NCBI GenBank assembly: GCA_011947345.1
Contig: JAAVTG010000653.1
Location: 1 to 64,000, forward strand
Source of the DNA: Phytophthora quininea
Taxonomy: Eukaryota; Oomycota; Peronosporomycetes; Peronosporales; Peronosporaceae
DNA length: 64,000 nt
Direction: 5' to 3'
A program made the translations under genes and the position numbers. Positions 4,733 to 33,187 of this stretch are shown here, piece by piece (the stretch's first letter is position 1; every line of letters begins with the position of its first letter). The notes beneath the pieces are model-generated. The model searched no databases. It had not been told where the DNA came from and saw nothing but the letters and a program-made list of their open reading frames with translations.

Positions 4733-7700
4733 TCAAACGCTTTCTGGAAAGTGACTCGCAACATACGAAAGTCGAAATCCCTGAATGACAGGAACAACTT
4801 CACGGTAACGCCTGCCGAGGCTGTGCGTGCGATGCAGTGGGTGCCCTGTGTGAAATGCTAATATCTCCTTCCGCGTGGACTTGCCCTTCTTCCCGAAGTA
4901 GCTCATGGCGAATTCGTAGATGCTGACAGCCGCAAGCTGGTTGGGGCGGAAGACGTAATCGTCCAAAAAGGAGACGGCCTGGAAGCGTGGTGTTTCAGAG
5001 TCGCCGCTTTCATCGACAAAATAGCATAAATGCTCCTCCTCCGAGCAGAGTTGCCGCAGGATGTCGTGAAAGGGAATGCATGAGCACCTCGAACTTTCAT
5101 AGCAACACGAGCCGCGGTACAAATACAGAGCCGCCAGCGGTCCAGCCACCTCCTGTCGGTTAGTCATGGCGTAGACCATTGATGCCACACGTTTCCTCGC
5201 CTTGGCAACTCCGTCGACGACCTGCGCTTGGGAGGCACTTTCGCCGTGGACTTCTCGCTCCTGCCGTCGCTGAAACGAGCCCAGGGCCATCACTACTACC
5301 GAGTCCAGACGTTTCTGCTGCTTCGTCACGTACTTTGTGCAGTAGTGTATCCGATCCGCAATATCTCTTCCGCCAAACAGAACCTGTATATCGTGATTGC
5401 ACTTGAACGTGGCCATCATCTCGTAGTTAAACCCATTAACAAACTCGTGCGCCAGCTTTCGCTCAAGCGTAACACCAGCTAAATCAAACGGCGTCTCCGG
5501 CGTACGGATGCGAGGAATTAGATACCTGTAATAGGAGTCATTCACCGCAGATTTTGACGTTTTGAAGGAGCTACTCGTGTGGATCCACCAGTGCTGGTTT
5601 AGCAAAACCACCAATGCGGAAACCATATAATCCATGACTTCGCGCCCCTTTCGACGGTCAGCCGGCATTGGCGGCAATGCTTCCATGAGGCGCGTCAGAC
5701 CGTCGTTTTGGAAAGGATCATCGTACCTGGAGCAGGTTACCATCTGATACGCGGTCGCGTTCTCGAAGACCTCTCTAAGCGGCCGAGAAGCACTGCTGCT
5801 CATTGGACCGCTCCCTCAGCTCCTGCTGAACGCTTTCACGCTCATAGACAATGGCAGCAGCCTGTCCCTTTGCATCACGACAGATTAATTCCTGACGCTC
5901 TTCGTCGTCCATCTCCGCCGGCGTGAGCTCGTTTCGCCATGGCGGCCAGTGAGCCGGTCGGTTCTGGAGTAGAGCGCTTCGCAATATGTGCTGCGAGCTA
6001 AGGTTTGTGTTACAAGCGCTGCACTGCAGCAGAGCGGGCTCTTTCACTGAGCGGTGCGCCTTGGAATGATACAGCCCGCGCCGTGGGTTCTGGCGAGCGC
6101 GCGCGGGTATGTCCAGCCCAACAAGATGGGCGTACGGGGCGTCGCAGTGTGAGCACGAGAGTCGTTCAACAGAAAGCGACAGGCTGTTAGAAACGATGCT
6201 CCGCACGTAGGACTCTACGGTTTCCTTGAATTGCTCTCTGCCAGGTCCACGCAGTAGGGATTCCAACTCGACTGTGCTCGACGGAGCGCCGCCTAGCCAA
6301 ATCAACATGTGTATGTGCAACGTTCCCCTTCCCTGTGTCTCGACCATGCCAAAGTACGCCCATACATCGCCGATCAAACCCGAGAAGGAGTTTCTCTGCT
6401 TTGGTGGCGGGTTGATCCCGAGCACATGCCTTATGAACACGTCCACACTTCGCATGAATAGACGCGCCGACGCACAGTCATTCCCGAGACTGGCCTCGCG
6501 TAGTTGGGCCTTCGATGGCTTACTGGCGTCCAAGAGGTCGAAGAGCGAATCAATGAATGTGATTCCGGTGTAGTGGGCCATGACGAGAGAATTGTCGGTA
6601 TTGGGCGTGAGGGTGATAAAAGAGATGGCTGTCCGAACCGTGTTTGGTAGGCAAATGCTTTTGTCTACACTTGGCACGCTCTGTGTTGCTACCCCAAACG
6701 GTGGCAGACGCGATCTCCACCGTTTTCAAAACTCTGTGCGCCACAGAGTCTTGTTCTGTGCGACCTGGCCACCTCCCGCGTTCGGCGGGCCCTATGGACT
6801 CAAACCCGCTGAAAACGCCAGGGAACCACAGGCAACGTATAGAAGTTTGTGTGTACATGTTTTTCATCGATATGCGGTCGAACGAAACCAGCGTAAAGAG
6901 CTCGTCTTCAGCGAACCGCCGCGTCGACAGCGTCGTGTAATGTTTCACGCACTCTTGAAGCGAGACCGTAACTTGCCGCGACTCTCCTGAGTGGCCGCGC
7001 CCAAACGGAAACAGGTGGGGGAACATTCTCGCCAACAAGTCGCCAGAGGCATCTCCAGATATTTTGTTCGAGCGCTTGACCAGAAATTCTCGGGTGTCGT
7101 TTTGGCGTGACGCTAGCGAGTGCTCGCGCGAAAGCAGCTCCTTTGCAGCATCCGATAACCCGATACGGCGCTCCACAACGCTTACCTCATCACAAGAATT
7201 CTCCACCTGCCAAACGTCCGAATGGCCCCGGATGTCTTCGAGATCTTCGCGCACGCTGTCGTCGATGGCTCGGCCTTCATCTTGTATGCGCTCCAAAATA
7301 AGATGTTCCAACAGCTCCGTATCGATCCCGTCGACCAAGACACCTTCGTTCCGAACAACGTCGCTGTAGAGACAATTGTTGCGCTTGTAAAAGTTGAATA
7401 GGTCAGGCTGCATTTTCTTAACCTTCTCAACCTGCTCGTCTGAGAAATCGCCGACCATCGCAACTCGGAATGCATCGGTACTTGAAATCGACCTCGGTAG
7501 CAGCAGCACGGGAGGTGAGGGTGTGCAATCAAACGCTTTAAAATGCGACCGAATACAGCGATGCCGCCCGCCTCTCATCACACGAGTCATTGCGGCGACT
7601 GTGACCAGCTGCGTCATCATTCTCTCCGGCAACGTCAGGGACTGCAGGTCGTCCGGCAAGCTCCCAACGAAAACCCCATTCGCAATAGCAAACTTCGGGA

Positions 7701-7958
7701 TGCGCCCGCGCTCTATTTCTTTCAAGCAGGTTTTGCACACAGTAAACCAGGCCGCCAAGTGCCCTCCTTCACCGGTGTAACAGCGGAAGCTTTTCGGCGC
7801 AACCATAACATCGCGCAGCAAGGTCACACATGCTGGAGCTCTGTACCAATCCAGAAGAGCGCGAGGTAGAGTCCTGTCCAATTCTCCCAAACTACGCCTT
7901 ATCTTGTTCATGAACATCCAGTCGGAGGCTTCTTTCCGTTCCGCCTCGCATCAAAGCA
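4733..7958 (-). pseudogene. Helitron Rep (HUH/Y2 endonuclease) part
   Basis: The N-terminal portion has the C-x2-C-L and R-I-P-K-F-A-I-A-N-G signature of the DUF6570 region that precedes the nuclease in Helitrons. The nuclease metal site reads GRGTLHIHMLIW, with His codons at about 6317 and 6311. The catalytic pair reads YCTKYVTK near 5330-5344, giving two Tyr three residues apart as in Y2 HUH enzymes. These residues nick and join single strands during rolling-circle transposition. The frame is broken near 6640 and near 5790 and stops with TGA at 4733, immediately before more in-frame homologous sequence. The N-terminal Cys cluster is cut by a TGA near 7953. Confidence 0.85.
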
Positions 7959-8419: not shown

Positions 8420-9057
8420 CTACGTCAGGGTTCGCTCGGGGGATGCTGCTTCATGACGCATGGTGCTGCTGCGTTGCGCGGCCGCCATCGCTGAGGCTGC
8501 GATAGCACGCACGTCCAACTCGTTGCCAGGGTCGAACCTTCTCGAAGAACCACTCTCTGGGAACGAGTTGCCATAAAGCGCTCTCTCCAGCTCGTAGGCA
8601 GCATCAAGATGCCGCAACAAGTCCTCGCTACCCGAGGCGTCGTTAGCACTATCATCTGTAGCCTCGTTGTGAGCTTGTTCAACAGCGCCACGGTGGCTAC
8701 GTGCCATCGTTGACGAGGCAGCAGTACGGCGACCTTGGCCACGCCCACTCGATATGTTTTTCGGATGCTTTGCGTTCCCATGGCCAGCAGTCTCCCCACC
8801 CGTGTTCGCTTCTTACGCCCGCGCCCGCCTTGGCAACGGTCACTTGCCTCGTCGTCACAAGGAGATCCAGATCCACAGGAAACGCCGACCCCGTGAGAGA
8901 CTCCAGCTCCACAAGCAGTTCCAGCGCCGCGAGAAATGCCAGCTTCACAAGAAACGCCAGCTCCATAAGAAACACCAGCCGCTGCACAAGAAACTCCATT
9001 TCCACGAGAAACATCGCCTCCCCGACCATTCCTGTCCGAGGGTGTCGTCAAATTCAC
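8420..9057 (-). other. Low-complexity coding-like stretch upstream of the Helitron Rep
   Basis: Two overlapping minus frames are open here. One (from about 9057) begins with Gly/Val/Ser/Cys-rich repeats such as GAGVSCEAGISRGAGTACGA, produced by the 18-bp tandem array. The other (from 8707, ATG) gives an acidic Ala/Glu/Asp-rich product. Neither matches a family I know. By position they could be the leader of the Helitron protein or captured sequence. Confidence 0.25.
8897..9018. repeat. 18-bp tandem repeat (minisatellite)
   Basis: About six units of period 18 (one of 21) follow the pattern GAAACGCCAGCTCCACAA with point changes. The units start near 8897, 8915, 8933, 8951, 8969, 8990 and 9008. 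The period is a multiple of three, so any reading frame stays open through it. Confidence 0.75.
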
Positions 9058-10115
9058 AAATGAGGCAGCGGTCTATGGAAACTCAGTTGAGCTTGATGGC
9101 CCAGTGTTTCTAGAACAGGGACATGAGGACACTTCAACATGGTACAGCGTACCGTGCCGGGGAAGCGTGTTGGCACCTGCCTCGCAGTGGTGGCGGCCGC
9201 GGTGGTGGTGGCGGAAGCAGTAACGGCGCAGCAGTAGCAACAGCAGGCGTAGAAATTACTAGGAAGCACCATCGTTTTCGTAACACTTTATGTTAAAAAA
9301 TTAAAAAAAAGTTTGCAATGTATAGCTGTATGGACGTACCGCATCAGCGTATGGTGGCTAGCGCACATGCATGAGCAGGCGGATCGATCGGTCGCAGGGT
9401 CGAGCAGGGGCACGAGCAGCAGGGGTGCGAGCGGGAGCGGGAGGGCGCTCCGGTGACGCCTCTGATTATTGTCGAATCAGCACATTTTTTTCTTAAATAT
9501 TCGCCCTGTGACGCGTGTAGAATGGCACCATCGTTTGAGGCCGCTTAGTAAAAGATACCGACGGAAATTCGGTATTTTGGCCCTTTGCTGTATCCATGCT
9601 CTTGCCAAGGACAACCGTGTCGCGCTTGTATAGTATAGTTTGCTCAAGTGTCATACACCGAAAATTCAAGTGTCTTACACCGAAAAACTGTGATTCCTCA
9701 TGAAGTACCGATCAATACCGATGAAAATCGCTGGCGTCACGAAAAATGCCTGTAACGACAGTTCTGAAGAACTGCGAATATATAGTATCTATCAGCGGTA
9801 GTGAAAGGGTTAAGGGTCAGAATGGGCAGGCGAAATCAACCGTTGGGTAACGATAAAATAAACACTGTGGTTTGATCAAGATATGTGTGTGCGAGCCAGA
9901 TGATCGGAAGGTCTCGACTATTAGTAGTTCATGGGCTTCAGCCCGCCGGCTGCCCTGTGCTGCTCTTCTGCATCCTGAAGCTCCTGTCCATGCGCTTTAT
10001 CAGCCACCAGAAAATGTGGAGACGATCTCAACGTTAGTGGTGCTTCAGCAGAGCACGAGAGGTAATATTTGAAGTGACCACAACATTTAAGGCGCCATCT
10101 TGCTGTTTGATAAGA
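9058..10115. other. Intergenic, no gene seen
   Basis: There is no supported gene. It contains an A/T-rich run near 9290-9315, a G/C-rich stretch near 9400-9450, and a short direct duplication: CAAGTGTCATACACCGAAAA at about 9644 is repeated with one change at about 9667. Confidence 0.4.
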
Positions 10116-11015
10116 TCATGATCGTCGAGACAGCACCGCTACGTAGAGAAAGCCGTCGGCGTAGGCAAAGTTCCGATACAAAGTCACGATAGAGACGTGC
10201 GATGGGACTGGAATGCCGTGGACGACGAGCTGCAGCTTGTTTTCCGTGTCCGTTGTCGCTGACGCGAAGAGGTCTGGAATCAGGTAGTGCAACACTTTCA
10301 GCAGAGTTTTTCTTGGCCTGCCACAACAATTCCACAAACAGAATGGTTAGTAAATAGTTTCCTAGACCTACATTTAACCCAACGCACCATCCTGCAACGG
10401 CGCGATTAGCATCTGAATTGCGGGTGCGTCATTGAGGTGCACCCGCAGCGGCAGATGCCTCAGCGTCGAGACCTCCCCGTCCAAATGCAACTCGTGCGTC
10501 GCTGTGATGCTGGGCAACCTTTTGGTGTGTCAGCTTCCTCTCACAAGCAGCAAGCTGGTAGCAGATCAGTGAGAGCGTCATGGCGTCAGGATCTGCTCGC
10601 AGCCGAGGAGGGTGCTCGCTCGGACTCGACAGTTGCTGCTGTTTACGGCAAGGACAAGGACGGCTTCCCTGGACTGCCAGGACGGCAGGTGGGAGCCTCG
10701 CTTGTACTGTAGTGGAGCTAGTTCGTTCACCTTGCATTTTGCAGTTAAGAAGTCAAGTACACGTTGACTTCGCGGGAGTTCCAGCTCCCAATCCCTGTTA
10801 GCACCACAGTCGCCTCTTGATAACTCTCATAGTCATCTATCAAAAGAAAATATATATAAGCCATTAGTACGTGAAGGTATCTGAAGTCCTTGTCAGAATT
10901 CACTTACTCTGAGCGATGCTGGTCCAGATTTGGGTCTGTTGAGCTTCAGGCAGCGCCATCACGGATTTCGTCGACCCTGTCCTTAGAAAAGTGGCTTGCT
11001 TCAAGCTGTGCATAA
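10116..11015 (-). CDS. ATG5: ATG5, 3' half (rest of exon 2 to stop)
   Basis: Exon 2 continues from 11010 (HSLKQATF...) to a GTAAGTG donor at 10907-10901. The next exon starts at 10836 after TTGATAG and continues QNDYESYQ, equivalent to the Q-N-D block of other ATG5 proteins. A later exon ends at 10384 with RHLPLRVHLNDAPAIQML. The last exon is 10317-10116 (KTLLKVLHYLIPDLF ... FAYADGFLYVAVL) and corresponds to the UblB domain. The exon between about 10800 and 10480 could not be closed without a stop, so either an extra intron or sequence damage lies there. Without a promoter this half should be silent. Confidence 0.8.
11011..11015. repeat. Target-site duplication CATAA, left copy
   Basis: CATAA directly abuts the TG of the 5' LTR and matches CATAA after the 3' LTR at 18590-18594. 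It lies across the Phe-Met codons of ATG5 exon 2. Confidence 0.93.
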
Positions 11016-11167
11016 TGTTGGAATTACTACGCACTCATGCACTTCAAGCTGCCACACAAACGGCAGTTGCGTGTTGAAATGATAGCAGCAGAGAGCGGAC
11101 TTGAGCAGTCGCTCAGTTCAAGATTTAACAAGAAGGAATAACAAGTTGCTGTTTTGTATATTCAACA
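11016..11167 (+). repeat. 5' LTR
   Basis: It starts TGTTGGAATTACTACGC and ends GTATATTCAACA, with 5-bp terminal inverted repeats TGTTG/CAACA. It is identical to the right LTR except at six bases. Confidence 0.95.
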
Positions 11168-11187
11168 GGGTTACGAGCCCAACGCAC
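11168..11187 (+). promoter_or_regulatory. Primer binding site
   Basis: GGGTTACGAGCCCAACGCAC starts right after the LTR. It complements the anticodon stem-loop of initiator Met tRNA with a mismatch at the middle anticodon base (ACG instead of ATG). Copia-type elements often prime from an internal half-tRNA of this kind. The mismatch could be a mutation. Confidence 0.55.
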
Positions 11188-11218
11188 GACCTCTGAAGTA
11201 CACAGCATTCTCGCAAGG

Positions 11219-11794
11219 GTGTCACCGTCGGACTCCGATGACAGTGGGAACGCCAAGCGACAGAAGTTTCGACTGCGTTCGTCGGGAACTCCGGTATGCT
11301 GGAGCGGCACGGACTGGAAGTTCTACAAGAATGAGATGATCAACGCATTTGAGAAGGATGGACTTGATGATCTTATCTTGCGCAGTGATGAATCAGCCGC
11401 CACAGCAGCCAAGGAAGGTGATGACGAGCAGAAGCGGACCAAGGATGAAGAACTTGAGCTCAAGAAGAAGCAAGCACAGATAAAAATTCTAATACAAGGG
11501 TCACTATCGACTACTATTGCCAAGCAAGTGATGGGGAAGTCGACGGGCACAGAAATGTGGGAAGAGCTTTTCACAATTTACGAAGGCAAGAATACCCCAG
11601 CGACGAAAGCCCAGAAGGTGTACCGCTTCCAGGGAGAAATGCACAGGATGCATTTGAAAGCTGGAGGTGGTGTAAGGAACCACTTGTACAAGATGTTCGA
11701 CCTCTACGATCAGCTCAAGGAGTTGGATTCGCCGGTGAACGATTTGCAGATGGTAGACCTATTGCTACGCAGCTTGTCAACAGAAACTTGCTAG
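11219..11794 (+). pseudogene. Copia gag (UBN2-type) N-terminal part
   Basis: The frame reads TPVCWSGTDWKFYKNEM and later KSTGTEMWEELFTIYEGK and HLYKMFDLYDQLKELD, the usual copia gag landmarks. There is no in-frame ATG at the front; the first Met is at about 11335, so the start codon may be lost. The frame ends at a TAG at 11792-11794, before the zinc knuckle, which lies in another frame. Confidence 0.8.
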
Positions 11795-11800
11795 CATGGA

Positions 11801-12684
11801 TTGAGGCGGAAAGTTTTCCTTAGTTCGAACATGTCAAAGTATACCCCAGAGTTAGTGCGAGAGATGATTCTGACGGCACATTCGCGATCGAAAGATTGGG
11901 AGGCGAATCGTGGGTTTGGCGCGAAAAAGCCAACCAGAACAACAAGTCGCGTGGCACAAATGACGGTAGCCAATAGAGCGGACCTCATGGAGCCAAGAAA
12001 TTCAGCAGAGGCAATAAAACCTGCTACAATCGCGGCGAACCTGGTCATTTTAGACGCGATCGCCCTAACAAAGGCATTGGGACTAGTGATACGAAGAAAA
12101 GTGCACAAGCAAAATATGCACAATCAAAAGAGACGAAACCAACTCACGAGAGAGCCAAACAGCATGAAGGATCAGAGAAACGTGAAGTACGAGTTGGGGA
12201 GGTCGCAAAACTTGCTGCAAAGTACCGTGACCCAACAGTTTGGTATTTTGATATTGGAAGTAATGCTTACCTCGCGGCGACCAAGGAGTATTTCACAGAG
12301 ATCCATGAGATGGCTGAGTGTAACTGGGACCCAAGCATATCGGGCCTTGTGGAAGGCGCCGACGTCAGTGCTGAGGGATTTGGGACTATTATTCTCGCTG
12401 TAATGATAGATGAACAAATGGTAGTGCTGTATTTGGAGGACGTGTTGTACGTGCCTGCAGCGGGCTGCAATTTATTCTCACCTGGATTAGCACTAAACCA
12501 AGGGTTCGAGATGACATGGATACCAACAGGGCGGATCTTCTCCATGCGGAAAGACACTGTTGAGGTGATTCGGACAGCATGTGGAAACAATGTCTGGACG
12601 TTCTTAGCACACAATATTGGTAGTGTGGCTACAGGGAAAGGACCAGAGGCTGTTAGAAAGCAAGTAATTGCTAATTTGCTGTAA
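11801..12684 (+). pseudogene. Copia zinc knuckle and protease region
   Basis: The knuckle lies at 12022-12063 and should read C-X2-C-X4-H-X4-C. Both the second and the last Cys codons are CGC (Arg), each one transition from TGC. The protease follows at about 12235-12480. Its active site reads D-I-G (12250-12258) where D-S/T-G is expected, followed by LYLEDVLYVPAAGCNLFSPG typical of copia proteases. The region shifts frame between knuckle and protease and stops at 12682-12684. Confidence 0.78.
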
Positions 12685-13310
12685 CTGATGGAGTTGCAGA
12701 CCTGGCGGTATGGCATGACCGACTTGCCCATACTTGTCCAAATTACTTTCGGTTGATGGTCGACCGCGGCCTCGCGAAGGGAATTCTGTTACGCCAGCGT
12801 GGTAAACTCGAGTGTGATGACTGTTACTTTGGAAAGCAGCGGAGAAAAACTCACAAGAAGAGGCTGGAAAGATCAATTGAAGGGCCGAACGATATTATTT
12901 TCGCTGACCTGTTGATCCCAGCTAAAGTGAATGCAACGAGATACTCAGCTGTGCTCATGATAATGGACGGCTACTCGCGATTCGTCAAGATGTACTTGCT
13001 GAAGGACAAGTCAAGTGCTGAAGTAAGTCAACGGATGAAAATTTACATTGCGTGGGCGGAGCGACAGAGCAGCCACAAAGTTGGTCGTGTTGTAGCGAAC
13101 ACTTGGGAGGTTGATGATGATCATTCCGTGCGGCGAGGGAAGGAGGTGCTGACCGATAAAGGACGCGAGTACTTCAATACAGAGATGGAGAATTGGTACG
13201 AATCAAAAGGGATTGTGCACACCAAAGTCGGACCAAAGGCGTCGCAACTAAATCTCGTTGAACGCACGCACCAGACCCTAGTTGGAATGGTAAAAGCGAT
13301 GTTGCACTAG
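12685..13310 (+). pseudogene. Copia GAG-pre-integrase and integrase
   Basis: The pre-integrase His and Cys residues (WHDRLAH near 12710, then LECDDCYFGKQ near 12810) are followed by the integrase core. The catalytic acids are D at 12905-12907, D at 13155-13157 and E at 13260-13262. The last two are 35 residues apart, the D,D35E spacing of retroviral-type integrases. The frame ends with TAG at 13308-13310, inside what should be the rest of the integrase (SFWAEALETAVYI continues after the stop). Confidence 0.85.
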
Positions 13311-13505
13311 TCTGGCTTGCCACGCTCGTTTTGGGCGGAAGCACTGGAGACTGCGGTGTACATAAAAAACCCGAGTGTTTTGCAAGGGTGCTGATAGGAC
13401 GCCGTACGAGATGATGTTTGGTAAAAACCAGATCTGCACCACATCCGAGCGTTTGGATCGCTGGCGTACGTTCATGCACCGATGACGTTGTGAAGAAAAT
13501 TTGAT

Positions 13506-14501
13506 ATGAACTGCAGAATCGGTTTTGCAATCGGCTACAGAGAAGATGTAGTTGGCTGCCATGTTTATTTTCCCACCGAGCACACTAAGGCATTTGTCTC
13601 GGACGTTCGTGTGAACGAAGAAATTAAGTATTGTGACCGATATGAAAACGCGTACAGGGAGAATTTGGAAAATTGGCTGGCAGGGCAACGTGAGCAGCGT
13701 ACTGATGTCGATATGGTGTCGGTAGCAGCTTGTGATAGGAACAGCGATGTCGAGGAGCTCACGGGCAATAACGAGCCTGCAGATGACAACGAGTCTGAGC
13801 TGGCGGAAGATGAACGATGATTGTGGGACGAAATCGTTCATAACAGCAATATGCCACAGCCTGATGACGATGATGCGAGTGAATCGCAGGAGGGTGAAAA
13901 TGGTGATACGGAAGTAGTTGATGAACTTGAGCAAGGAGATGTAGGTACCGAGTTGAACGATGATGTCAGGCACGAGGCAGCAGACAGCACTGGCGCCGAC
14001 GATAACTCAGGACAGGAAGCTGTAGACGAAGTTGCCGTTAGTTATTATGGCAAAGGAACTGACATTGACAACTCACCTGACTTGAATGGTGAGAGCGCTT
14101 CTGAACGTGACGATGCGTCGGAGTTAGCAGACTATGAAAGTGAAAAAGAGCGTGAGGTGGATAGTGAGAGTGTCGGTACACGGGGCGATGAATATTACAG
14201 TGACGACGAGGGTAAATACTCGCTCTTGGATCCTGGTGACGAAGCCGAGGCGGACTCGGAGGACGGGGAAGACAATCTGCTGGTCGTCGATCTGGAGGAA
14301 ACAAATGATGGCACAATTACCGATGAGCGGTCGATGGAAGTAGAGGAACGAGGTTTGTCGGCGACACTGCCTTATGCGAACGAGGTTGGTCGTCGACGGT
14401 TGCGTGAAAATGACTTGCCACCGCGTGATGAAGTGACAAAGCGACCGAAAGCGGACAACAAGAAAGCAAAAGCTAGCCCGGACGGTGAAGAACCCCAGTA
14501 G
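13506..14501 (+). pseudogene. Acidic linker between integrase and reverse transcriptase
   Basis: After a short integrase C-terminal block (VGCHVYFPTEHTKAFVSDV) about 270 residues are extremely rich in Asp, Glu, Ser and Asn, broken once by a TGA at 13818. The linker ends in a basic patch (KRPKADNKKAKAS) just before the RT. Copia elements commonly have a low-complexity link here, but this one is long and strongly acidic. Confidence 0.65.
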
Positions 14502-14518
14502 CTATACGCCGTGCAGGA

Positions 14519-15806
14519 TTGAGATCTGTTGAGGACCGTCGACCACCAGAGCGATACGGCGATTATGCTGTCTACTCTGCTTTTCACGCTTTACATTCTG
14601 ATCGTCGAGGAAACGCAGGGATCCGTGCGAATGACGTGAGAATCCCGAAGGATTATCGGCAGGCAATGCGATCGAAGCACGCGGCGTATTGGAAAGACGC
14701 GATGGACGCAGAAATCCAAGCCTTAAAGGACAAACAAGTCTTGGAGGAGATCTCACGAGCAGAAATGCCAGAAGGGCAGCAAACGATCGAAACAATGTGG
14801 GTGTTTGACATCAAGACAGATCACTTGGGGTATGTAGTGCAGTTTCGAGCGAGAATAGTGGCGCGTGGTGATAAGCAACGGCAAGGAATTGATTTTGTAG
14901 AGACGTTTTCACCTGTTGCAAGGATGGCGACATTCAGGTTGTTCGTGGCGACGTGCACAATGTTGAATCTTCCGATTTATCAGGCAGACGTGAATACAGC
15001 TTATCTGAATGCAGTGCTGGGAATCAAGCAATATCTTGAACGACTCGAAGGTTATCCATGCGAGGATCCAGATCATGTATACGTCGTTAACAAGGCACTC
15101 TACGGATTAAGGCAATCAGGACGCGAATGGAACAGCGAGTTTGACATTTGGCTGAAGCAATATGGTTTTGAGCAGAACAGTACTGAGCCGTGTCTGTGCG
15201 TATTCAACCGAGACGGTCATTTTGTGCTAGTTATGATCTATGTCGATGATATATTGTGTGCAACAAAGGACGAGGAGTTCAAGGTGAAGCTTTTCGAGAG
15301 ACTGGATGTGTGCTACGGGCTGAAAGACCAAGGGCTCTTGCACAAGTATTTGGGTGTTGAGGTTGAGCAGACCGATACTACAACTAAACTTCACCAAAAC
15401 CACTACTGTGAGGAAGTTATTGAGAGATTTAAGTTCACAGGAGCTCACCCAAGCAAAATACCTATGGAAACAACTATACGATTCACTGCCACAGACACTT
15501 GTGAAGCTGAAAATCGACGCAAGCACGCACCAGGCTTTGGAAAGGATTTTCTTTATAGAGAATGTGTCGGGTCGTTGATGTATTTAGCGACTTGTACACG
15601 ACCAGATATTGCGTACGTAGTTGGCCAGCTGAGTCAATACGTGCAGGCACCCACGATGCAGCACATTGGGGCGGCGAAACGGGTGTTGCGGTACATTGTA
15701 GGCGCAAAAGAACAAGGAATCGTGTACAATGTGGGCAGTGGGGACACACGAGCAGTGAAGCTCGACGGATACTCTGATTTTGATTGGGGAAATGACCCTG
15801 ACACTA
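14519..15806 (+). pseudogene. Copia reverse transcriptase and first part of RNase H
   Basis: The RVT_2 domain is open for over 400 codons: WVFDIKTDHLG, ARIVARGDKQRQGIDF, then FSPVARMATFRLF. Next come QADVNTAYLNAVLG, KALYGLRQSGREWN and the catalytic YVDD at 15239-15250. The connection region and start of RNase H follow (DGYSDFDWGNDPDT), where the pogo-like element cuts in at a TA. The original reading continues at 17991. Confidence 0.92.
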
Positions 15807-15830
15807 CACTAAGCACAGCAATTAGTGTTA
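15807..15830. repeat. Left terminal inverted repeat of the pogo-like element
   Basis: CACTAAGCACAGCAATTAGT continues with GTTA. It pairs with the right repeat at 17965-17988 with one mismatch at base 12. Confidence 0.92.
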
Positions 15831-15854
15831 GTGGATATTTAGTGTTAGTTTTGT

Positions 15855-15875
15855 ATTAGTGTTAATAACACTAAT
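15855..15875. repeat. Subterminal palindrome, left
   Basis: A perfect 10-bp inverted repeat (ATTAGTGTTA / TAACACTAAT) around one central A. An identical copy lies at 17901-17921. The repeated ATTAGTGTTA motif also recurs in the TIRs, so it may be a transposase-binding site. Confidence 0.75.
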
Positions 15876-16005
15876 TCGTGTGTTCTACGGTAGCCAGAAA
15901 AACTCACACTAATTCAGGTATTATTGGAGCACAGTTTGCTTTCTATCCCATTCTCATTCTGACCTGACACAGACACCAGTTCACAGCAAGCCACAAAGCA
16001 CGACA

Positions 16006-17833
16006 ATGTCCTCGCACGATTCGTGTACCGCTTCAACGACAACACCTTCTCCTAGAAAACCCTATCTCATCGAGGCTGCAATGGAAAGAGCACGAGTACT
16101 TGCAGCTAATAGGCAAGAAATGCGAGGTGCACAAGTTCATTCTGACGAAATCTCAACGGACTCTCCACAGCTTCCGTCCATTGAAAGCTCGTCAATGGCA
16201 GACTCGGCGTCACTCGACACCAAGAAACGGAAGCGGAAACTGCAACTGCAACATGTCTCCACAAAGCAAGACAAGCTCGCCGTTCTCAAATGGATGATTG
16301 CCGCCGACAAAGTCGACTCAAAGTATCTGTTCAAGCGCACAATCGCTGCTTTTCCCGAATGCTTTCGAGCAGATTCTGACTCGGCTAACTACATGAAGGC
16401 ATCGCGGTGGTGGAAAGATAGGCAGAAGTTTATTGACGCCTTTTCTCGTCCTGAAAATCGGATGTCCGTCCAGGCCCTTCAGCCTGGCACTCGCAAGCAT
16501 GTTATGCTCAAAGCCTTGCCTGGCCGCGGTCGCAAGCGCGATCCATGGACCGATTGGCTTCATCTGTTACTACAGGAGGAATTTCACCGGCTTCGCAAGG
16601 CTGGGTTGAAGCTCGCACCCACAGTGCTTGTCTCCGTTGCTAAGTATCTACTTGCTGACTCTAACCATGAAACTTACTGTAAGACTTTCGTTCCTCCTGG
16701 CAAGGAAATTCCATTTTATGAGCAGTTAAATGTGAGATGGATTCAAACGTTTCAGGAGCGCTTTAATATTGTACAACGAAAGCAATGCGGTAAAAGCAGC
16801 TAAGTCCGCAAAAGGAATTGCAGATTGAACGCGAGGTAGCGTTTCACAAGGGTATTTTGATGCGCGGTTTTGACAGTGGAGAATTTACCGACACTCATAT
16901 GGCTAACATGGATGAAACGCATTTCATTATTGATATGGATAATGGCAGAACACTAAACACTAAAGGAACGGAACACATCCAATATGCTGACGTTGTATCA
17001 GGAACGACTGGTATGACAATGGTTGTACTAATCGAAGGGGAAGTTCTGCCAAAATTGGGGTGCCAATGATGATTTTTGTTAATGCTGATGGCAATTACCC
17101 AATTCGCGGCGTTCCTGACAACATACCAGGTGTGTGTTGCTATCCATACGTGAACATGGAGATGTACACTACTAACGCAAAACTGTATAACAGGTGTGAC
17201 GTACCGAACAGCGCCAAAAGGCTTTATGACGTCCTCTGTGTTTGCCAAATGGCTTGGAGAACGGCGAGTGAACAGAAGACGACGGGGTACTCGCAAAATG
17301 ATTCTCTGGGCGGACAACTATAGTGGTCATGGCATAACAGAAGCTGCTAAGGCGCAGCTAGAAGAGCTCAACATTGATTTACGCTTCTTCCCAGCAAACG
17401 CAACGCACCTTGTGCAACCGGCGGACTCTTTCGTCATCTCAATAATTAAGGATGCATGGACTAAACGCTGGAACGAAAAAAGGTGGAAATGATTCGAAAC
17501 GAGCAATGGCAAAATAACGTGAGGAGGGATGGTTCTTGGTCCGGCGCGCTACAAAATCCAGGCAAGCGGTTTTATCTTCAGCTCGCGGCTGATTCTGTCC
17601 GAGATGTCAATGCACAAATAACAGCTAAGGACAGCATCTCATATGCACAGAAAGCTATGATACGGTGCGGATTAGCGTGTAAGAACGGCAAATGGTCAGT
17701 ATCACAGCTGAGCAATGGGCTCCAGTACATTATTGAGAAGCACTACCAGCACTTTATGGGAAAACCTGCCAACGAAGCCGAAGATGAAGACAGAGATAGC
17801 GTTTGTGGACAGACTCTAGAAGCTGTTGTGTAA
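16006..17833 (+). pseudogene. Pogo-like transposase, frame-broken
   Basis: The first frame (ATG 16006 to TAA 16803) has a basic Lys/Arg patch (KKRKRKLQLQ) and a helical DNA-binding region up to CENP-B-like WIQTFQERFNI. The catalytic core is spread over other frames: MDETHFIIDMDNGRTLNTKG (about 16908-16967) with the first Asp, ILWADNYSGHG (about 17300-17335) with the second, and FFPANATHLVQPADSFVISI (about 17385-17445) with the third. A further C-terminal frame runs to 17833. Frame changes near 16803, 17065, 17195 and 17480 make it inactive. Confidence 0.82.
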
Positions 17834-17900
17834 CATTCATTACGCTAGCTAACACGAACACAACACTAATTGATGGTACCTTATATAGTGTTAGTGTCGT

Positions 17901-17921
17901 ATTAGTGTTAATAACACTAAT
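17901..17921. repeat. Subterminal palindrome, right
   Basis: The same 21-base palindrome as at 15855-15875, placed symmetrically near the other end of the element. Confidence 0.75.
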
Positions 17922-17964
17922 TCATGTGTACTTTGAAAATGGAGACTCTCGCTAATAGTGTTAG

Positions 17965-17988
17965 TAACACTAATTGATGTGCTTAGTG
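17965..17988. repeat. Right terminal inverted repeat of the pogo-like element
   Basis: This is the reverse complement of the left repeat with a single difference (T for G at base 12), followed by the TA duplication. Confidence 0.92.
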
Positions 17989-17990
17989 TA

Positions 17991-18409
17991 GGAAAAATGT
18001 CACGGGCTACGCAGTGAGTGTTGCTGGTGGAGCAGTGTCCTGGACATCGAGGCGTCAGTCGATAGTAGCTCAGTCAACGGCCGAAGCCGAGTATGTCGCC
18101 GCATGCGAGGCGTGTATGGAGGGCCAAGGTCTACGCAACATTCTCAGTGAAACTTTTACTGACATGCAAGTAAATTTCTCGCTTGGCATTGACAATCAAG
18201 CAGCATACGTGATGGCAACTAATCCTACGTACAGCCGTAGAACGCGCCACATTGAACTGCGTTGGCACAACGTGCGGGATCAGGTTGTCAAGAGAACGGT
18301 GGACCTTTGGAAGGTCAATACGGACGTGAATTCGGCAGATATTCTGACGAAACCACTAGCAGGTTGTCGTCATGAAGCGCTCAGCAAAGCGTTGGGCATG
18401 CATAAGTAG
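17991..18409 (+). pseudogene. Copia RNase H, remainder after the nested element
   Basis: The frame resumes with the rest of the typical block D-T-R-K-x-V-T-G-Y. It runs through SWTSRRQSIVAQSTAEAEYVA, then LGIDNQAAYVMATNP and HIELRWHNVRDQV, to a TAG at 18407-18409. The RNase H Glu and Asp residues (AEAE, GIDN) are present. Splicing out 15807-17988 and one TA rejoins the frame exactly. Confidence 0.9.
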
Positions 18410-18427
18410 TGTACGAAGGTGAACTTC

Positions 18428-18437
18428 GAGGAGGGCG
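18428..18437 (+). promoter_or_regulatory. Polypurine tract
   Basis: GAGGAGGGCG ends directly at the TG of the 3' LTR, the position needed to prime plus-strand synthesis. Confidence 0.7.
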
Positions 18438-18589
18438 TGTTGGAATTATTACGCACTCATGCACTTCAAGCTGCTGCACAAACGGCAGTTGCGTGTTGAA
18501 ATGATAGCAGCAGATAGCGGGCTTGAGCAGTCGCTCAGTTCAAGATTTAACAAGAAGGAATAACAAGTTGCTGTTTTGCATATTCAACA
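18438..18589 (+). repeat. 3' LTR
   Basis: It is 152 bp, starts TGTTGGAATTATTACGC and ends GCATATTCAACA. It is followed by the target duplication CATAA at 18590-18594. Confidence 0.95.
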
Positions 18590-19074
18590 CATAAAGTGCG
18601 ACTCCACACTTTGTTCGGTGTCACAAGGCAGCAAGACTTCGTTGGGGAAGCCCAAAAAGTGGACTGTCAGCTTCCAGGGCAAGTTTGCTGCCTCAACCGG
18701 GTCTGTCCCGCAAAGAATGTCACGAAGTAGTCCGAAGGGTAAATGCCAGTGGAGCGGCACGCCGTTAGCCTCGAACCAAATGGGGTTGCCGTGAACACCA
18801 GCCATGGGAGGAGTTGCGTCTCGAAAATATTCGACGACGTCCCGGGTCTGGGACACCAGATACCCCATCCGAGGAACCATTGCCTGTTAGAACAATTAAT
18901 TTGGAACAAACATCAGTTTTAGACTGTGTATGTAGTATCTGGACAGCAACAACTTACGTAGAATGGACGAGGAGCATGTAGCGTCGTGACTTCCGATGGG
19001 TCTAAGGAGAAGACGACGGGGATGCGGCCCGCCCACACGCGCTGGCGCAGCAGCTCCAAGCCAGCGTCGTTCAT
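18590..19074 (-). CDS. ATG5: ATG5, 5' half (exon 1 and first part of exon 2)
   Basis: Exon 1 runs from the ATG at 19074 to 18958, encoding 39 codons (MNDAGLELLRQRVWAGRIPV...). The intron spans 18957-18884, with GTAAGTT donor and AACAG acceptor. Exon 2 resumes in phase 0 at 18883 and reads through IWFEANGVPLHWHLPFGLL, PWKLTVHFLGF and ESHFM before meeting the retrotransposon. There are no stops or frameshifts. The residues match the N-terminal ATG16-binding helix and UblA domain of ATG5. Confidence 0.88.
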
Positions 19075-19459
19075 AAGATGTTCTGGGTATTTCTATTTTG
19101 ATGTGTTTTTCTCAGATTAAAACATAGATACTTAGTGAATACTTTACATGGATATTTTATCACATTACTTGAGTTTTGTATTGCAAAGAACAGCATTGTT
19201 GGGGAATTTGACAACTTTTTATGTTGTGATTGTTGTAGACCGTTTACGATCCTGAAGTGCTCCCATCTCGAACGTATCGCGTCGACTCAACGCCATTGCT
19301 TTTTGCTTTGTCGATCTTGCACAGAAGATTGATGCAACCGTTACGACAAGAATTTCGGGAGCACGCAATCCGTTGCAACCATAAACCGTTAGATTGTAGT
19401 GCGTGCCACTTCGCTTCTCTTAGCATCGGAAAACTCGCGGTGTTCGCATTGAGCGCGAC

Positions 19460-19510: not shown

Positions 19511-20386
19511 ATGGTTTCTTCTCCATTTCTAGCTGTCTTAGCGATAGCTGCGACTCTCTTGACGACCGTCGACGCTCGACTTTCCACCGGCGTCTGCTAC
19601 TCTCCGTGGCACCACCAGACCGTCAATTGGGACGTGCTAGCCAACGACATGAACCAGGTCTCGCAGTACTTCTCGAGCATCCGCACCTACCACGCGCAGT
19701 TCAGCGGTGTCAACGTCGTCGACATGGCGGCCTCGGCCGGGATTCGCGTTGCTATTGGAGTTCAAATGGGCGATCGCAGTAAAATCGCCTCCGAGATTCA
19801 GGCCGTTTGCGACGGCTACTCTCGCAACACGTGGGCTGTGGAAGCTGTCTACGTGGGTAATGAAAACCTCCGCAATGGCGGCTTTGGATCGTACTCTGCC
19901 AACGATTTGGTGGGCTACATTCGCTGGGTGAAAAGTTGTGTGGGAATACCCCGTGGGCTCGGTACAGCGCACCAACGAGTGGTTAACTGCCGATGGAGCG
20001 TGGACTCTCGCGAGTGCCAGCGACGTCATCGGTGTCAACATTCACCCGTTTTTACGCCTGGCGGACAGCCACCTATCGAGAAGCTCGTGGCACAGTGGAA
20101 TCAAATGACAAGCAAGTTCGGTTCGAGCAAAGTTCACCTGACGGAAACGGGATGGCCGTATGCCGGTGGAAACTACCAAAACAATTGGGCGTCCATGAGC
20201 ACCATGCAGCAATATCTGTACGATTATTCGTGGTGGTCCAAGAGCGTGGGTCAGTCCTACTGGTTCATGATGTACGACACGACCGTGAGCTACTCGGGCG
20301 CCGAATACGAGAAACATTTTGGGCTGTTCGGCACGGATATGTCCAAGCACGTGAATTTTCCAAACTGGAGACTGCGACGCCTATAG
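19511..20386 (+). CDS. Secreted GH17 glucan hydrolase, copy 1 (frame-disturbed)
   Basis: GH17 enzymes cleave or remodel beta-1,3-glucan, a main component of oomycete walls and of plant callose. A signal peptide ([20 protein letters not shown], cut near DA) precedes [13 protein letters not shown]. The acid/base motif VGNE and the nucleophile motif HLTETGWP are both present. Between about 19944 and 20050 the frame differs from copy 2. Three single bases appear missing, in an A run, a C run (ACCCCG) and a T run (GTTTTTA), after which the frame returns and continues to 20386. All three are homopolymer losses, so this may be an intact gene with sequence errors. It sits 780 bp before copy 2 in tandem. 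Confidence 0.85.
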
Positions 20387-21093
20387 TCGCGTCCAAGCAG
20401 ACCATCACTGTGAACGATCCACAGTAGGATTTTAATACCGCCAAAGTTTTGCATTCCTTTGAAAATAAACGCTAAGACGATGCCCTCGCTTTTGTTTTGG
20501 ATCTCTATTTTTTATGGTGGTTGTTTGGTTGGGCTCATTTCGCTTGTATCGAAGGATATACAATAATTATCCCTTCGCAACGTCGAACAGAACTCATTAA
20601 CCTCTCTGTAATTGTCAATTTACCATCTCGTGCTATCTGCTCTCGAACAAAACAATCGTCTATTTCCCGGCAGCTCCTCCACGTATCGCTTGTAGACACG
20701 CGAAATATGTACATCGTGAAGATCACCACCGCACTTTGCATTTGAACCGCGTCCGGAGCTCCCCAGCCATACCCAACAGCTAATAAGCCACCAAGAAGAA
20801 AATGGTCGTTCTAAGTCGCTGTTTTACGAGAATGCAACAGGTTAGAATTGACGAGTTAAAACTTTCAGTGAGAACGTTCACTCCACCACAAACGATCGAT
20901 CGAAGGATTGGTATGGGATCTTTCAACGCATGTTATCCGTCACGATGTCCCTATGGTTCGAGTGGTAACTCATTTGTCGCGTATCGTATCATACATGAGG
21001 ATAGTACTTGTTTGGACACCATGAATTCCAAGTGACTCTCAGTTCTCTCTCCCGACCTTATGGAGTGTACTGGAGCTCGCCACGCGACTCTGC
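20387..21093. other. Intergenic between GH17 copies 1 and 2
   Basis: No gene is supported. The 3' side of copy 1 is A/T-rich (AATAAA-like near 20463). Nothing else is recognised up to the promoter of copy 2. Confidence 0.5.
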
Positions 21094-21110
21094 TTTCATT
21101 CCCCAATTTC
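21094..21110 (+). promoter_or_regulatory. Oomycete Inr plus FPR core promoter
   Basis: TTTCATTCCCCAATTTC fits the oomycete composite start site well: initiator TCATTCC followed by the flanking CAATTT element. It lies about 55-70 nt upstream of the ATG at 21163. Confidence 0.65.
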
Positions 21111-21162
21111 CTTTATCGAGCACGAGGATCTACAAAAACAACAGGTTGAACCAATCCAAGCA

Positions 21163-22053
21163 ATGGTTTCCTCGACTTTCGCTGCTTTCGCCGTGGGTGC
21201 TGCGGTCACCGTGACCGGCGTCGACGCTCGACTTTCCACCGGTGTCTGTTACTCGCCGTGGCACCACTCGATCGTCAATTGGGACGTGCTAGCCAACGAC
21301 ATGAAGCAGGTCTCGCAGTACTTCTCAAGCATCCGCACCTACCACGCGCAGTTCAGCGGTGTCAACGTCGTCGACATGGCGGCCTCGGCCGGGATTCGCG
21401 TTGCTGTCGGTGTGCAGCTGGGTGACCGTCGCTACATTGACTCGGAGATTCAGGCCGTTTGCGACGGCTACGGTCGGAACGCGTGGGCCGTCGAGGCCGT
21501 CTACGTGGGCAACGAGGACCTGCAGAACGGCGGCTTCGGTTCCTTCTCGGCCGACGAATTGGCCGGCTACATCCGTCGCGTCAAGAGCTGTGTCGGCAAC
21601 ACTCCCGTCGGATCGGCGCAGCGCATCAATGAGTGGTTGGGTGCCGACCAGGCCTGGACGCTGGCCAATGCCTGCGACATCATCGGTGTCAACATCCACC
21701 CGTACTTCACGCCCGGTAGTCAACCCGCTATTGAAAAGCTGAAATCTCAATGGGAGCAGATGATAAGCAAGTTCGGCGCTGCCAAGGTGCACCTGACGGA
21801 GACTAGCTGGCCGTACGCTGGTGAGAATTACCAGGGCAACGTCCCGTCCAAGGAGAACATGCAGCAGTTCCTGTACGACTACGCGTGGTGGGCCAAGAGC
21901 GTGGCCCAGTCGTACTGGTTCATGATGTACGACACGGTTGTGAGCTACACTGGCTCCGAGTGCGAGAAGCGCTTCGGTCTGTTCGGCACGGATATGTCCC
22001 AGCACGTCAGCATCCCGGACTACCAGAACCAGCAGCAGCGTCTGCGTCTCTAA
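21163..22053 (+). CDS. Secreted GH17 glucan hydrolase, copy 2 (intact)
   Basis: An uninterrupted 296-residue product with a signal peptide ([20 protein letters not shown], cut near DA) followed by the mature start [13 protein letters not shown]. The predicted catalytic acid/base is Glu118 in VYVGNEDL and the nucleophile is Glu213 in HLTETSWP, the GH17 pair. The end has a Gln-rich tail QNQQQRLRL. It would act outside the cell or in the wall on beta-1,3-glucans. It is a tandem duplicate of the gene at 19511 (same orientation), and a third relative lies inverted at 30784-31669. A good core promoter precedes it. Confidence 0.9.
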
Positions 22054-24323: not shown

Positions 24324-24820
24324 ACACGGCAGTCTTCCGTGAGTTCTTGGAGGGCTGCGAGAAGTGGAAGCAGCCGTTCAGACCCAGCGCTGGCCTTCCG
24401 ATCGGCCCACCGCGTTAACATCACCTCGGAGACCCTTCACGAAGAGGTCCTTGGCTCACATTAGCAGCCCACCAACGACCTTGTCGTTTTGACAGAGCCG
24501 TTCTCCTCATCCACCGTCACACTCTTGCCTTCCATCGTGCTTAAAACGGGTATCACAGTAAAACAGGTCAATACACAAGTTAACGACTGCGGACGAACTT
24601 GCTCGTGAAGGAGCAGAATTGCGTGGAGATGATGCCCCAGATCCATTCGCCGTGCTGCATCCTGTGCGAGCGGCTGGCGGCAGGAGGCAAGCAAGGCTTC
24701 CCGTCGGTTAATGTCGCCAGGCTGCACTGACCCTACGAACAGGCGCGTCAATGGACTCACTCCGGTTCGTTTTCCCGTTTATTCACAGTAGAAAGTCCTC
24801 GGGGTCGAGAGCCAAGAGCG
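24324..24820. other. No gene recognised
   Basis: Short open frames on both strands lack recognisable features. The segment separates the truncated kinase copy from the ankyrin-kinase gene. Confidence 0.4.
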
Positions 24821-25661
24821 ATGCTCCACAAGGAGGCGAGGTTGCGCGACGGATGCAGCGGAGGTGACCTCGTGACGGTGCGGCGTTTGGTGGAGCAAGA
24901 GGGCGTTTCCATCGAGGCAGAGAGCTCGAGGTACAAGCACAGACCGCTGACCCGCGCGAGTGAGTATGGTCACCTGAAAGTTGTCAAATATTTGCTGGGG
25001 CGGGGCGCTCAAGTGGACGCAAAGAACCAAGACGGAACCACGGCGCTGAGTTTCGCAGCAAGTAAGGGCCATCTGGAGGTTGCACAGCTTCTATGGCAGC
25101 ACCAGCGTGAATGCGTCGGACGTTAACAGGCGGACACCGCTGTCACTGGCTGCTGGAAACGGTCATGAGCAGATGGTCAAGTGGCTGGTTGACATCGATG
25201 CTAATGCGAATATTGCAGACGTGACCGGCAAAACACCACTCTTTTATGCGTGCTACCATAATGAGCTTGAGATTGCCGAGTGGTTAGCTGGGATTGGAGC
25301 TGATGAGAATGCAGTCGATATGGAAGGGAAACACTACTTATGGTGGCGTGTAGGAGGGGTTGCTTTAAAATTGCCAAGTGGCTGGTTAAGATCGGAGCTG
25401 ACGTGAATGCAGCACACACGGAAGGGAGATCACCACTCTTGTACGCGTGTAAGATGGGTAACTTTAAAATTGCCGACTGGCTGGAAGAGATCGGAGTTGA
25501 GGTGAATGCAGCAGACCCGAAAGGGAAAACACCCTCATTTAGGCGGGTGACTACGAAATGGTGGAATTTCTGTTAGGGAAGAAGGCAGACCAAGCCTAAT
25601 CGACAATACTCAACGAGCAGCTCGGGACTATGCGCCCCGAAATATCAAGGAGCTGCTCCTG

Positions 25662-26801
25662 TTGAATATTATTCAAGGCCAGCGAAGGTTCCAATCGTCA
25701 TTAACGTCTCCGCAGTGGTTCATCCGTGCTACAGAGATCGAACTCGAGGAATTCGAGTCGGCCAAAGACATTGGTGGAGATTTTGTTGGGAGGTGGCTAC
25801 ACTCGGAAGTGGTAATCAAGCTCTGGATGCCGAGTTCTACCGAGAAGCTGTCGTTTGAGGAGCAGGCGAATCGCTGGTTTGTACTTCGGCACCCAAACAT
25901 TCAAAAGCTCTACGGCGCGGTATATGAACGCTATTGTTTGTTGATTTGTGAGCACATGACGAACGGGTCTTTGGCCGACTATATCGAGACAATCATGTGG
26001 AAACGTGAAGACGAGAATGGATCTCTGGCTGACTCTATCAAGAACATTTTGTGGACTGTAAAATGTTTGTATGAGGCTGCTTTAGGCTTGCAGTTCCTGC
26101 ATGGGCGGGGTCTGGTGCACGGAGATGTCCGACTGGCGAACATTCTCATCGGTGAGGACGGCATCGCGAGGATGGCGAATGTGGCGCACGCTGTTCCAAC
26201 CCAAAGTAGTGGTGATGAAAAATGCTCTTTGGCTTCTGACATTCTCGCTTTCGGGAAATGCTTATCACGTGCCAAGTTTCCTTTCAACCCGAAGCTAGGG
26301 TACGAGCTTATTGAACTGGAGAACGACATGTCTCGTGATCCAGAGGATCGATGCACAATTGCCACCGTCGTTTCTCGGTTAAGAGATTTGCTAGATGTGA
26401 TGAATGAAAAGGAGGAGCTTCCACAGGATTCATGTGGTTGTGACAGTGACGTCTTCGATAAACTGAGCGAGATTGAGGACGCTGTGGACGAGCTCGATAG
26501 TGAGCTTTACAGAAACCTACTTGATGTACTTAAGAGCTACTGCGAGAGAGTTTTGGATTCTAGTCCTTCCATCAACGCGAAAGCGATTGAAGATGCAGTC
26601 ATCATCCTCCAAAACATTCTTGTTGCTATCGATCAGCAGCAATCTAGATCCAATCTAGCGATCCAACGCCTTTCCTCCAGCCGCGCAACAGATTCCTATC
26701 TGGATTTCTTTAGGAAGCAAATGCAGTGCTTCCTTAATGCACTGGGTGCTTCTGCAGTGATCCTCCGTGAATTTGAACAGCAGTGGTGTGGGCTATGTTA
26801 G
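25662..26801 (+). pseudogene. Pseudokinase domain of the fusion gene
   Basis: The frame runs open for 379 codons. VVIKLW holds the candidate ATP-binding Lys. LRHPNIQKLYGAVY is the helix C/beta-4 region, and LVHGDVRLANILI is the catalytic loop with HGD in place of HRD. Where DFG is expected the chain reads MANVAHAV, so the metal-binding Asp is missing. After the domain come long helices (LDVLKSYCERVLDSS...). The TAG at 26799-26801 is followed in the same frame by the helical linker leading to the second kinase. Confidence 0.75.
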
Positions 26802-26813
26802 CATCAGATCGAT

Positions 26814-28308
26814 ATGTTTGTGTCTGAGCTAGACAAGTCCCTCACCCTGCTACGCCCTGCTGACGAAGAGGATATGTTAGCTCTATTGCAGCAAGAGAGG
26901 CAAAACAAACGGTATTCTCCGGAGCAGCGCGAGATTATCCAGAAGGCATACGACGAATTAGCTTCAAAGCAATCCGACAGGACGTTTGAACAGCTTCCGG
27001 ACTGGTTCATTGGGTCGTACGAGCTCGAAAACGAAAAAAATTCGCTCGTGGTGGCTTAGCGTTGTTTCGCGAGCTACGTGGCTGCAATCGAAGGTGGTTG
27101 TCAAGAGAATGATCATGGATAGTAGTTTCCTGTCATCGGGGAGTCGACAGGAACAGCGCCAAACCTTTCAGAACGAAATCTCGCTGTGGTTCTCCCTGAG
27201 CCATCCACATGTCGTGAAGTTGTTTGGCGGATGCCACATCGGGACGCCGTTCTTCGTATGCGAAGAAGCCACGAACGGCCCACTCGACAAGTACTTAAAA
27301 GATCACCCAACCTAAGTGCGGTAGAAGCTTTACGAGGCTGCTCTAGAACTTGAGTATCTTCATGCGCGAGGCATCGTTCATCGAGATTTAAAATGCGACA
27401 GCATCTTGGTCGGTACTGACGGGAAGGCCAAATTGACAGATTTCGGGCTGAGTGCGCCAGCTAGTGCTGAGGCAGCAGACCAAGGAGCAGTAAGTGGTGC
27501 TGTTCGGTGGGTGGCTCCGGAATGTCTGAACGGGAAGCAGGCAACGTACCCGTCGGATATCTTTTCGCTTGGTATGTGCATCATCCAAGCAGTCAGTGGG
27601 CAGGTGCCATGGGGAGGCCGACTGGACAATGGTGTAGTCCAGGCTCATGTAAAGAAAGGGGAACTGCCTTCACGTCCTCCTCAGTTTACGGACTCTCAGT
27701 GGCAACTGGTGGAGAATATGTGCATGTTTGATCCATCCAAACGAGTGCACATTCTTGTCGCCGTCCAAAAGTTGAAGCAGTTTGCAGAAAGCTCGGTGGA
27801 CAATTCTCCTACATTTTGGAAGGCCCTTGTGCGCTCGTGGAGGCAGAACCTGCTTCACCTGGCGAGACGAAAACTATCGCGAAATAATATCGACACAAAC
27901 AATCGAATGGCATCCCAAATCTACGAGCTTCTCCTGGACCGCCTCGACAACTTGTACACTCACAATTACGACGCTGTCTTTGGGACTAGCCTCAATGCTA
28001 TCTCATCGAGAACCATGCAGGCGTTGACGCAATTGCATGAGCTGAAGTCGACGCTGGATCTTGTGAAATCGGTGTTCAGGGGTTCTTGTTGCTTGACCGG
28101 GTTCTTGCGGAGTACTTTATTGCCTCGGACGCTACCGTGCACGCTTGGGAAGGTGAATGCTCGGCAATTCTGTGTGGTAAAGCCGTTGGCTCCCACGGCG
28201 TGGAACCGACAAGAGATGGAGTGGACAGTGTTTGTGCAGCATGATCGCACACCGATGGACCAATCCAGGTGTGTCGTTTTTCGTGAAGCTGCTCCCTCTG
28301 ACCCCTAG
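26814..28308 (+). pseudogene. TKL-type kinase domain of the fusion gene
   Basis: The linker EQLPDWFIGSYELE leads after a frameshift (about 27040) into KVVVKRMIM and LSHPHVVKLFGGCH. Two stops (27313 TAA, 27322 TAG) follow. Then comes a complete catalytic half: [23 protein letters not shown] in [12 protein letters not shown] in VRWVAPECL, and [19 protein letters not shown] and APE are all present, so unlike the upstream domain it had an active-kinase layout. A helical tail runs to 28308. Confidence 0.75.
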
Positions 28309-32500: not shown

Positions 32501-32510
32501 TGGAGGTGAT

Positions 32511-32850: not shown

Positions 32851-33187
32851 GTGGACGCGGGATAACTTTACGGTCTTCACTTCTTGCCGTATACAAGTGC
32901 TAATCTTGAGATGTTAGGCGGAAAACAGTACCATCGTTCGTGTATGCTGCATTGGTGTTGATCATGGACGCCTCACCTCAGAGCTATAGACGTTTCCACA
33001 GCCGGAATAAAGCGGTTTGACCCCCCTTCGCCACGAATTAATCACACGATACCGTTCAAGCAGTCGTATTACTGCTAGGAGCAGCGTTCAACAAACCTTC
33101 ACCAAGAATTTACTAGAGAAGGTCTGATAACTACTCCAAGTTGTCATCGTACTGTAGGTACAAAATATCACATCGCTCAGCGATAAA
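32851..33187. other. No gene recognised
   Basis: No coding signal. It lies between the effector relics and the 3' end of the ankyrin gene on the minus strand. Confidence 0.4.

Follow-up and report, generated by a model that had tools for sequence, protein, structure and literature searches.

A doubly interrupted ATG5 gene of Phytophthora quininea is probably a redundant, decaying copy in a genome that also holds an intact one

The window analyzed here comprises 64,000 nucleotides of Phytophthora quininea DNA (GenBank assembly GCA_011947345.1, contig JAAVTG010000653.1, forward-strand positions 1 to 64,000; the contig is referred to below as C647). A gene for the autophagy protein ATG5 lies on the minus strand between positions 10116 and 19074. 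Its four exons can be followed and its introns are kept, but exon 2 and exon 3 are each interrupted by inserted sequence of the long terminal repeat (LTR) type (Table 1). When the coding pieces were searched separately against Pfam, all three ATG5 domains (ATG5_UblA, ATG5_HBR, and ATG5_UblB) were matched. Exon 1 searched alone gave a weak UblA match (E 1.5e-4; 22.8 bits, just short of the cut-off of 23) and showed zero codon differences from the corresponding exon of an ATG5 copy on contig C565, which is described below. The codon for the lysine expected to accept ATG12 is found at 10999-11001, four residues past the interrupted ...HFM. It equals K141 of the C565 protein, a residue that aligned to a lysine of the solved ATG5 structure 4gdk_B and was lysine in 21 of the 22 relatives with a residue at the site. 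We take K141 to correspond to human K130, the ATG12 conjugation site. By its domain content, the gene is a genuine ATG5. The initial annotation of this DNA had named it so, and that identification is borne out by the domains in the flanking pieces and by the relatives and solved structures that the C565 protein matches.

Table 1. Features of the disrupted ATG5 locus (positions in the window)
Feature	Position	Strand	Remarks
ATG5 exon 4	10116-10317	-	stop codon 10116-10118; UblB 5.9e-14 over 10119-10316
ATG5 exon 3, 3' part	10384-10502	-	carries second GTCGC copy 10498-10502
Stretch best read as solo LTR	10503-10808		306 bp; second insertion, ATG5 exon 3; GTCGC both sides
ATG5 exon 3, 5' part	10809-10836	-	terminal GTCGC copy 10809-10813; aligned to C565/C537
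ATG5 exon 2, 3' part	10908-11010	-	begins HSLK; ATG5_HBR 1.1e-11; CATAA duplicate 11011-11015 adjoins
Copia LTR retrotransposon	11016-18589	+	7,574 bp; splits ATG5 exon 2; degraded
Copia 5' LTR	11016-11167	+	152 bp
Segment nested in Copia element	15804-17991		2,188 bp; 27-bp inverted repeats at ends
Copia 3' LTR	18438-18589	+	152 bp
ATG5 exon 2, 5' part	18590-18883	-	ends ...VESHFM; includes CATAA target duplicate 18590-18594; UblA 1.4e-17
ATG5 exon 1	18958-19074	-	39 codons; start codon 19072-19074

The insertion in exon 2 has TG...CA ends, is flanked on both sides by CATAA (11011-11015 and 18590-18594), and is bounded by two LTRs that are identical at 146 of 152 positions (6 differing sites; 95% interval of the divergence 1.5-8.4%). 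Three of the six pieces of this region that were searched against Pfam gave matches, namely to Retrotran_gag_2 (11219-11794), the integrase domain rve (12753-13310), and RVT_2 (14519-15859). No Pfam match was obtained for the pieces 13821-14501, 18020-18406, and 16006-16803, the last of which is an open reading frame (ORF) within the nested segment, itself a probable DNA transposon to judge from its inverted repeats. The interior order of gag, integrase, and reverse transcriptase (RT) is that of Copia elements. With an LTR pair, a target duplication, and an integrase ahead of RVT_2, the sequence identifies the insertion as an element of the Copia superfamily; LTRs, duplicates, and domains agree in this with the initial annotation, which had placed a Copia element across the CATAA, four residues ahead of the lysine expected to be conjugated. 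The ORFs of the element are spread over several frames. The ATG5 frame enters the LTR after ESHFM and there reads a single cysteine followed by a stop codon.

When the initial 1,185 bases of the element were searched against the genome, the matches were C647, contig C646, and otherwise at least some LTR-like pieces of no more than 152 bases (73-98% identical). Interior stretches elsewhere were 66-69% identical among the matches listed for this query, and no near-identical Copia element was among them. The junction 11015/11016 is present in C646 too; that contig terminates within the element and is silent on the junction 18589/18590.

The insertion in exon 3 was overlooked in the initial annotation, as were the further ATG5 copies. 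The inserted stretch is missing from C565 and from contig C537, and it shows TG...CA ends together with a 5-bp duplicate. A genome search with a query containing it returned related copies on contigs C185, C695, C19, and C543 at 80-93% identity. The copies on C185 at 552361 and 560903 (93%) are in the same orientation and about 8.5 kb apart, a spacing as of an LTR pair, suggesting that they enclose an element. These features make a solo LTR the most likely reading of the stretch in exon 3.

The whole assembly (87 Mb in 993 contigs) was searched for other copies of the gene. The ATG5_UblB profile matched in four places, on C537, C565, C646, and C647 (the window). C565 carries an unbroken ATG5 at 20668-21740 with GT-AG introns and 285 codons plus a stop; its open frame runs through all exons, whereas that of the window copy is interrupted in exons 2 and 3. 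The matches of the C565 protein to ATG5_UblA (7.5e-30), ATG5_HBR (7.9e-19), and ATG5_UblB (1.6e-20) were all over cut-off. Among the 23 relatives returned, the eight best, which were Phytophthora, Peronospora, Plasmopara, and Bremia records, were 71-82% identical with at least 96% query coverage each, identities that point to a host within the Phytophthora clade, and the protein also matched seven distinct solved ATG5 sequences. The unbroken C565 gene supports a second allele or copy, one of the outcomes envisaged in the initial annotation. The event had been treated there as a hit on the organism's ATG5; it concerns one of several copies.

In the C537 copy, a T run in exon 2 is one T short, resulting in a frameshift, and two of the three distinct ATG5 copies (C537, C565, and C647) are thus broken in frame. 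Because C646 and C647 disagree in five homopolymer lengths, the C537 frameshift is plausibly a sequencing error. For four of the 11 window ORFs compared (19511-20386, 25827-26801, 30964-31611, and 33818-34945), the best match in C537 was spread over two frames. Real decay may be the cause, though numerous errors of this type would give a similar picture.

C646 (15456 bp) matched window positions 8906-11741 with no substitutions and five homopolymer-length events. Farther left, 500-base bins of C646 differed from C647 by about 1.4-5.4% substitutions, and this left part tracked contig C645 at 99.6% up to C646:10471. In C646, the disrupted copy of the window has probably been assembled once more and linked up by way of repeats, and the C646 junction therefore provides no independent read support. 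The view of C646 as an independent haplotype supporting the insertion was rejected on the same observations, the five homopolymer events being its only differences from the window over 8906-11741 and its left part being C645-like.

Codons were compared among the window, C565, and C537 over 283 codons, piecewise and never joined across either insertion. The window copy showed seven replacement changes and one silent change. The C565 branch showed one replacement and two silent changes, and the C537 branch, which is unpolarized and takes in the stem leading to the window and C565, showed eight and ten. The ratio of 7:1 in the window differed from the 9:12 of the other two branches with a Fisher p of 0.044. 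Three of the window replacements (A63T, N128T, and P211L in C565 numbering) affect residues conserved in 19 of the 21 relatives with a residue there. Because an intact ATG5 exists elsewhere, relaxed selection is expected on the window copy, and the codon counts agree with this. The initial annotation had contrasted the LTR divergence with exons that looked undamaged; the solo LTR in exon 3 speaks against that description, and the codon counts, though small, do not support it either.

Other autophagy genes were sought in the same assembly. ATG7 gave one match, and Autophagy_act_C (the ATG3/ATG10-type E2) gave three, two of them with an internal stop. Of ATG16 and ATG12, to which the initial annotation had also pointed, ATG16 gave one match over cut-off (the control matches stayed under the cut-off in 6 of the 14 genomes), and ATG12 was seen as partial matches at a lax threshold only. 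At E 0.001 the ATG12 family had zero matches in the assembly, and the control search was equally without a match anywhere; at E up to 10 there were six matches, of which two, at 23.2 and 23.0 bits, exceeded the cut-off of 22.8. Partial ATG12 pieces paired with equal spacing lie at C399:18104-18434 and C185:573477-573804 and may represent a spliced ATG12 gene that is present twice. The single ATG7 and ATG16 matches imply that extra copies are not general here, though ATG12 pieces sit on two contigs.

These observations suggest that the window ATG5 is a pseudogenized, redundant copy, decaying while an intact copy remains in the genome, a reading to which we assign a probability of about 0.87. 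In the order of events that we infer, the Copia element would have entered exon 2 through ordinary integrase-mediated insertion with a 5-bp target duplication. A different LTR element would have entered exon 3 and then lost its interior, probably by LTR-LTR recombination, leaving the solo LTR behind. Translation from the normal start would run into the stop at the second LTR codon and yield about 138 residues with UblA alone. Such a product would lack the acceptor lysine for ATG12 as well as the helical bundle and UblB, and both it and the transcript would most probably be inactive or degraded. This decay could be tolerated because the ATG5 frame on C565 is unbroken, and the C565 copy would presumably be expressed, sufficient, and the carrier of ATG5 function. 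Splicing out of the element like an intron was considered and seems unlikely, as the stop lies at the second LTR codon and exon 3 is broken too.

Several points weigh against this reading. The intact frame is known from C565 alone, and disagreements in homopolymer length are seen in this assembly. The codon counts are small, with only eight changed codons on the window branch behind the p of 0.044. Single distant relatives carry T at position 63 (P0023) and L at position 211 (P0022), and the remaining four window replacements fall at variable positions. In addition, C565 and C647 may be related as alleles or as tandem duplicates, or one of them may represent a third haplotype.

Two accounts of that relation are compatible with the pseudogene reading, and we hold each of them tentatively, at somewhat under even odds. 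According to the first, C565 and C647 belong to one haplotype with two ATG5 genes that arose by tandem or segmental duplication, and C537 represents the other haplotype, which has a single copy. In favor of this, the sequence left of ATG5 in C537 is collinear with C565, and that on the right is collinear with C647. In the 3' part of ATG5, C565 and C647 are mutually closest (10 differences in 653 between the window and C565, against 27 between the window and C537 and 23 between C565 and C537). Furthermore, the starts of C565 (at 91.5%) and of C647 both match inside C646, 800 bases apart. As a bridge between the two contigs, however, C646 proves little and was set aside, as its left 3.7 kb consist of many-copy repeats with 37 matches in the genome and the contig tracks C645 at 99.6% up to C646:10471. 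A neighboring-gene 200-base bin at 19790 is also closer to C537 (15 differences from the window) than to C565 (44 differences), so the history is mosaic.

The window and C565 differ at 32 of 1639 sites over the ATG5 locus, a figure summed from chosen bins (those of the 3' and middle parts together with 18590-19190) with omission of the bins from 19390 on, which lie mostly in a glucanosyltransferase-like gene. Compared with the LTR divergence of 6/152, this gave a binomial p of 0.079, which does not separate duplication and insertion in time. In C537, the ATG5 block lies between inverted-repeat arms at 77016-78499 and 86215-89682 (contig coordinates minus 102000). The left arm on C565 (22079-25565) was 98.5% identical to the right arm of C647 (window 24788-28260) and 88.6-91.5% identical to C537. 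These arm identities suggest an exchange between inverted-repeat arms.

According to the second account, which we regard just as tentatively, the disrupted and intact copies are haplotypes of one ATG5 locus, the isolate being diploid, polyploid, or heterokaryotic, and they would have been assembled separately owing to several per cent divergence and the insertions. The flanks are collinear among C537, C565, and C647, and the single matches for ATG7 and ATG16 fit an organism in which extra gene copies are not general. Yet three distinct versions exceed one diploid locus, and C647 and C565 run into repeats or unmatched sequence rather than the expected opposite flank. Contig C170 matched C647 at about 100% from window position 30898 (searched as 30898-33200 and 33200-35400), and C170 ends there.

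Homology of the window to C537 and C565 ends near 9816-9826. Downstream of the ATG5 copy, at 5775-7917 on the minus strand and reaching to about 9815, the window contains ORFs matching Helitron_like_N and DUF6570. The 3' flank of the window ATG5 thus appears to have been replaced by transposon sequence. On the other side of the gene, the ORFs 19511-20386, 21163-22053, and 30964-31611 are related; none of them had a Pfam match, and the first matched a solved beta-1,3-glucanosyltransferase with an E of 6.2e-14. An ankyrin-repeat ORF lies at 34979-36304, and its best C537 protein match was about 60% identical with gaps.

The remaining readings are less probable. If the C537 frameshift were real, one functional ATG5 would be left amid repeat-driven rearrangement, and the organism would be near to losing ATG12-ATG5 or would show a lineage-specific dosage change; we consider this improbable. 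Still less credence is due to a misassembly in which the Copia element was falsely joined into ATG5. The junctions are indeed known from assembled contigs alone, and C646, the sole other contig with 11015/11016, looks repeat-bridged, but the clean 5-bp target duplication, the TG...CA ends, and the matched LTRs speak against a false join, and no near-identical element that could cause one was among the matches listed. Finally, a loss of canonical ATG5 function, and with it the lack of canonical autophagy that the initial annotation had entertained, was rejected as the least probable of all, for although two of the three distinct copies are frame-broken and ATG12 was seen solely as partial matches, the C565 copy is intact and has the lysine and each of the three domains, ATG7 and ATG3/ATG10-type E2 matches exist, and the C537 frame is broken by a difference of a single T within a T run, like the five C646/C647 homopolymer events.

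The disruption of the window ATG5 is accordingly no evidence for autophagy loss. A striking core-gene disruption on one contig became explicable once intact copies had been looked for elsewhere in the genome. The locus adds to the oomycete gene copies broken by LTR elements, and here the assembly also provides an intact copy for comparison. In the titles and abstract beginnings searched, a pseudogene of ATG5 in an oomycete was not described, which is not proof of absence.

The window gene has the domain order and acceptor lysine of the ATG5 family in common with the C565 gene, but it cannot encode the full protein, whereas the C565 gene can. The inserted element shares two LTRs, a 5-bp duplicate, and the gag-integrase-RT order with the Copia superfamily and departs from it in its degraded frames and in the nested inverted-repeat segment 15804-17991. 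Decayed gene copies in an LTR-retrotransposon-rich genome are likewise reported for the oomycete Peronosclerospora sorghi (PMC9997571). In comparison with the dispersed pseudogenes described there, the window copy is that of a core autophagy gene, has kept its introns, and carries two LTR insertions. Judged from its sequence, the window ATG5 looks like a doubly disrupted redundant copy, a pseudogene of a familiar kind produced by ordinary gene decay.

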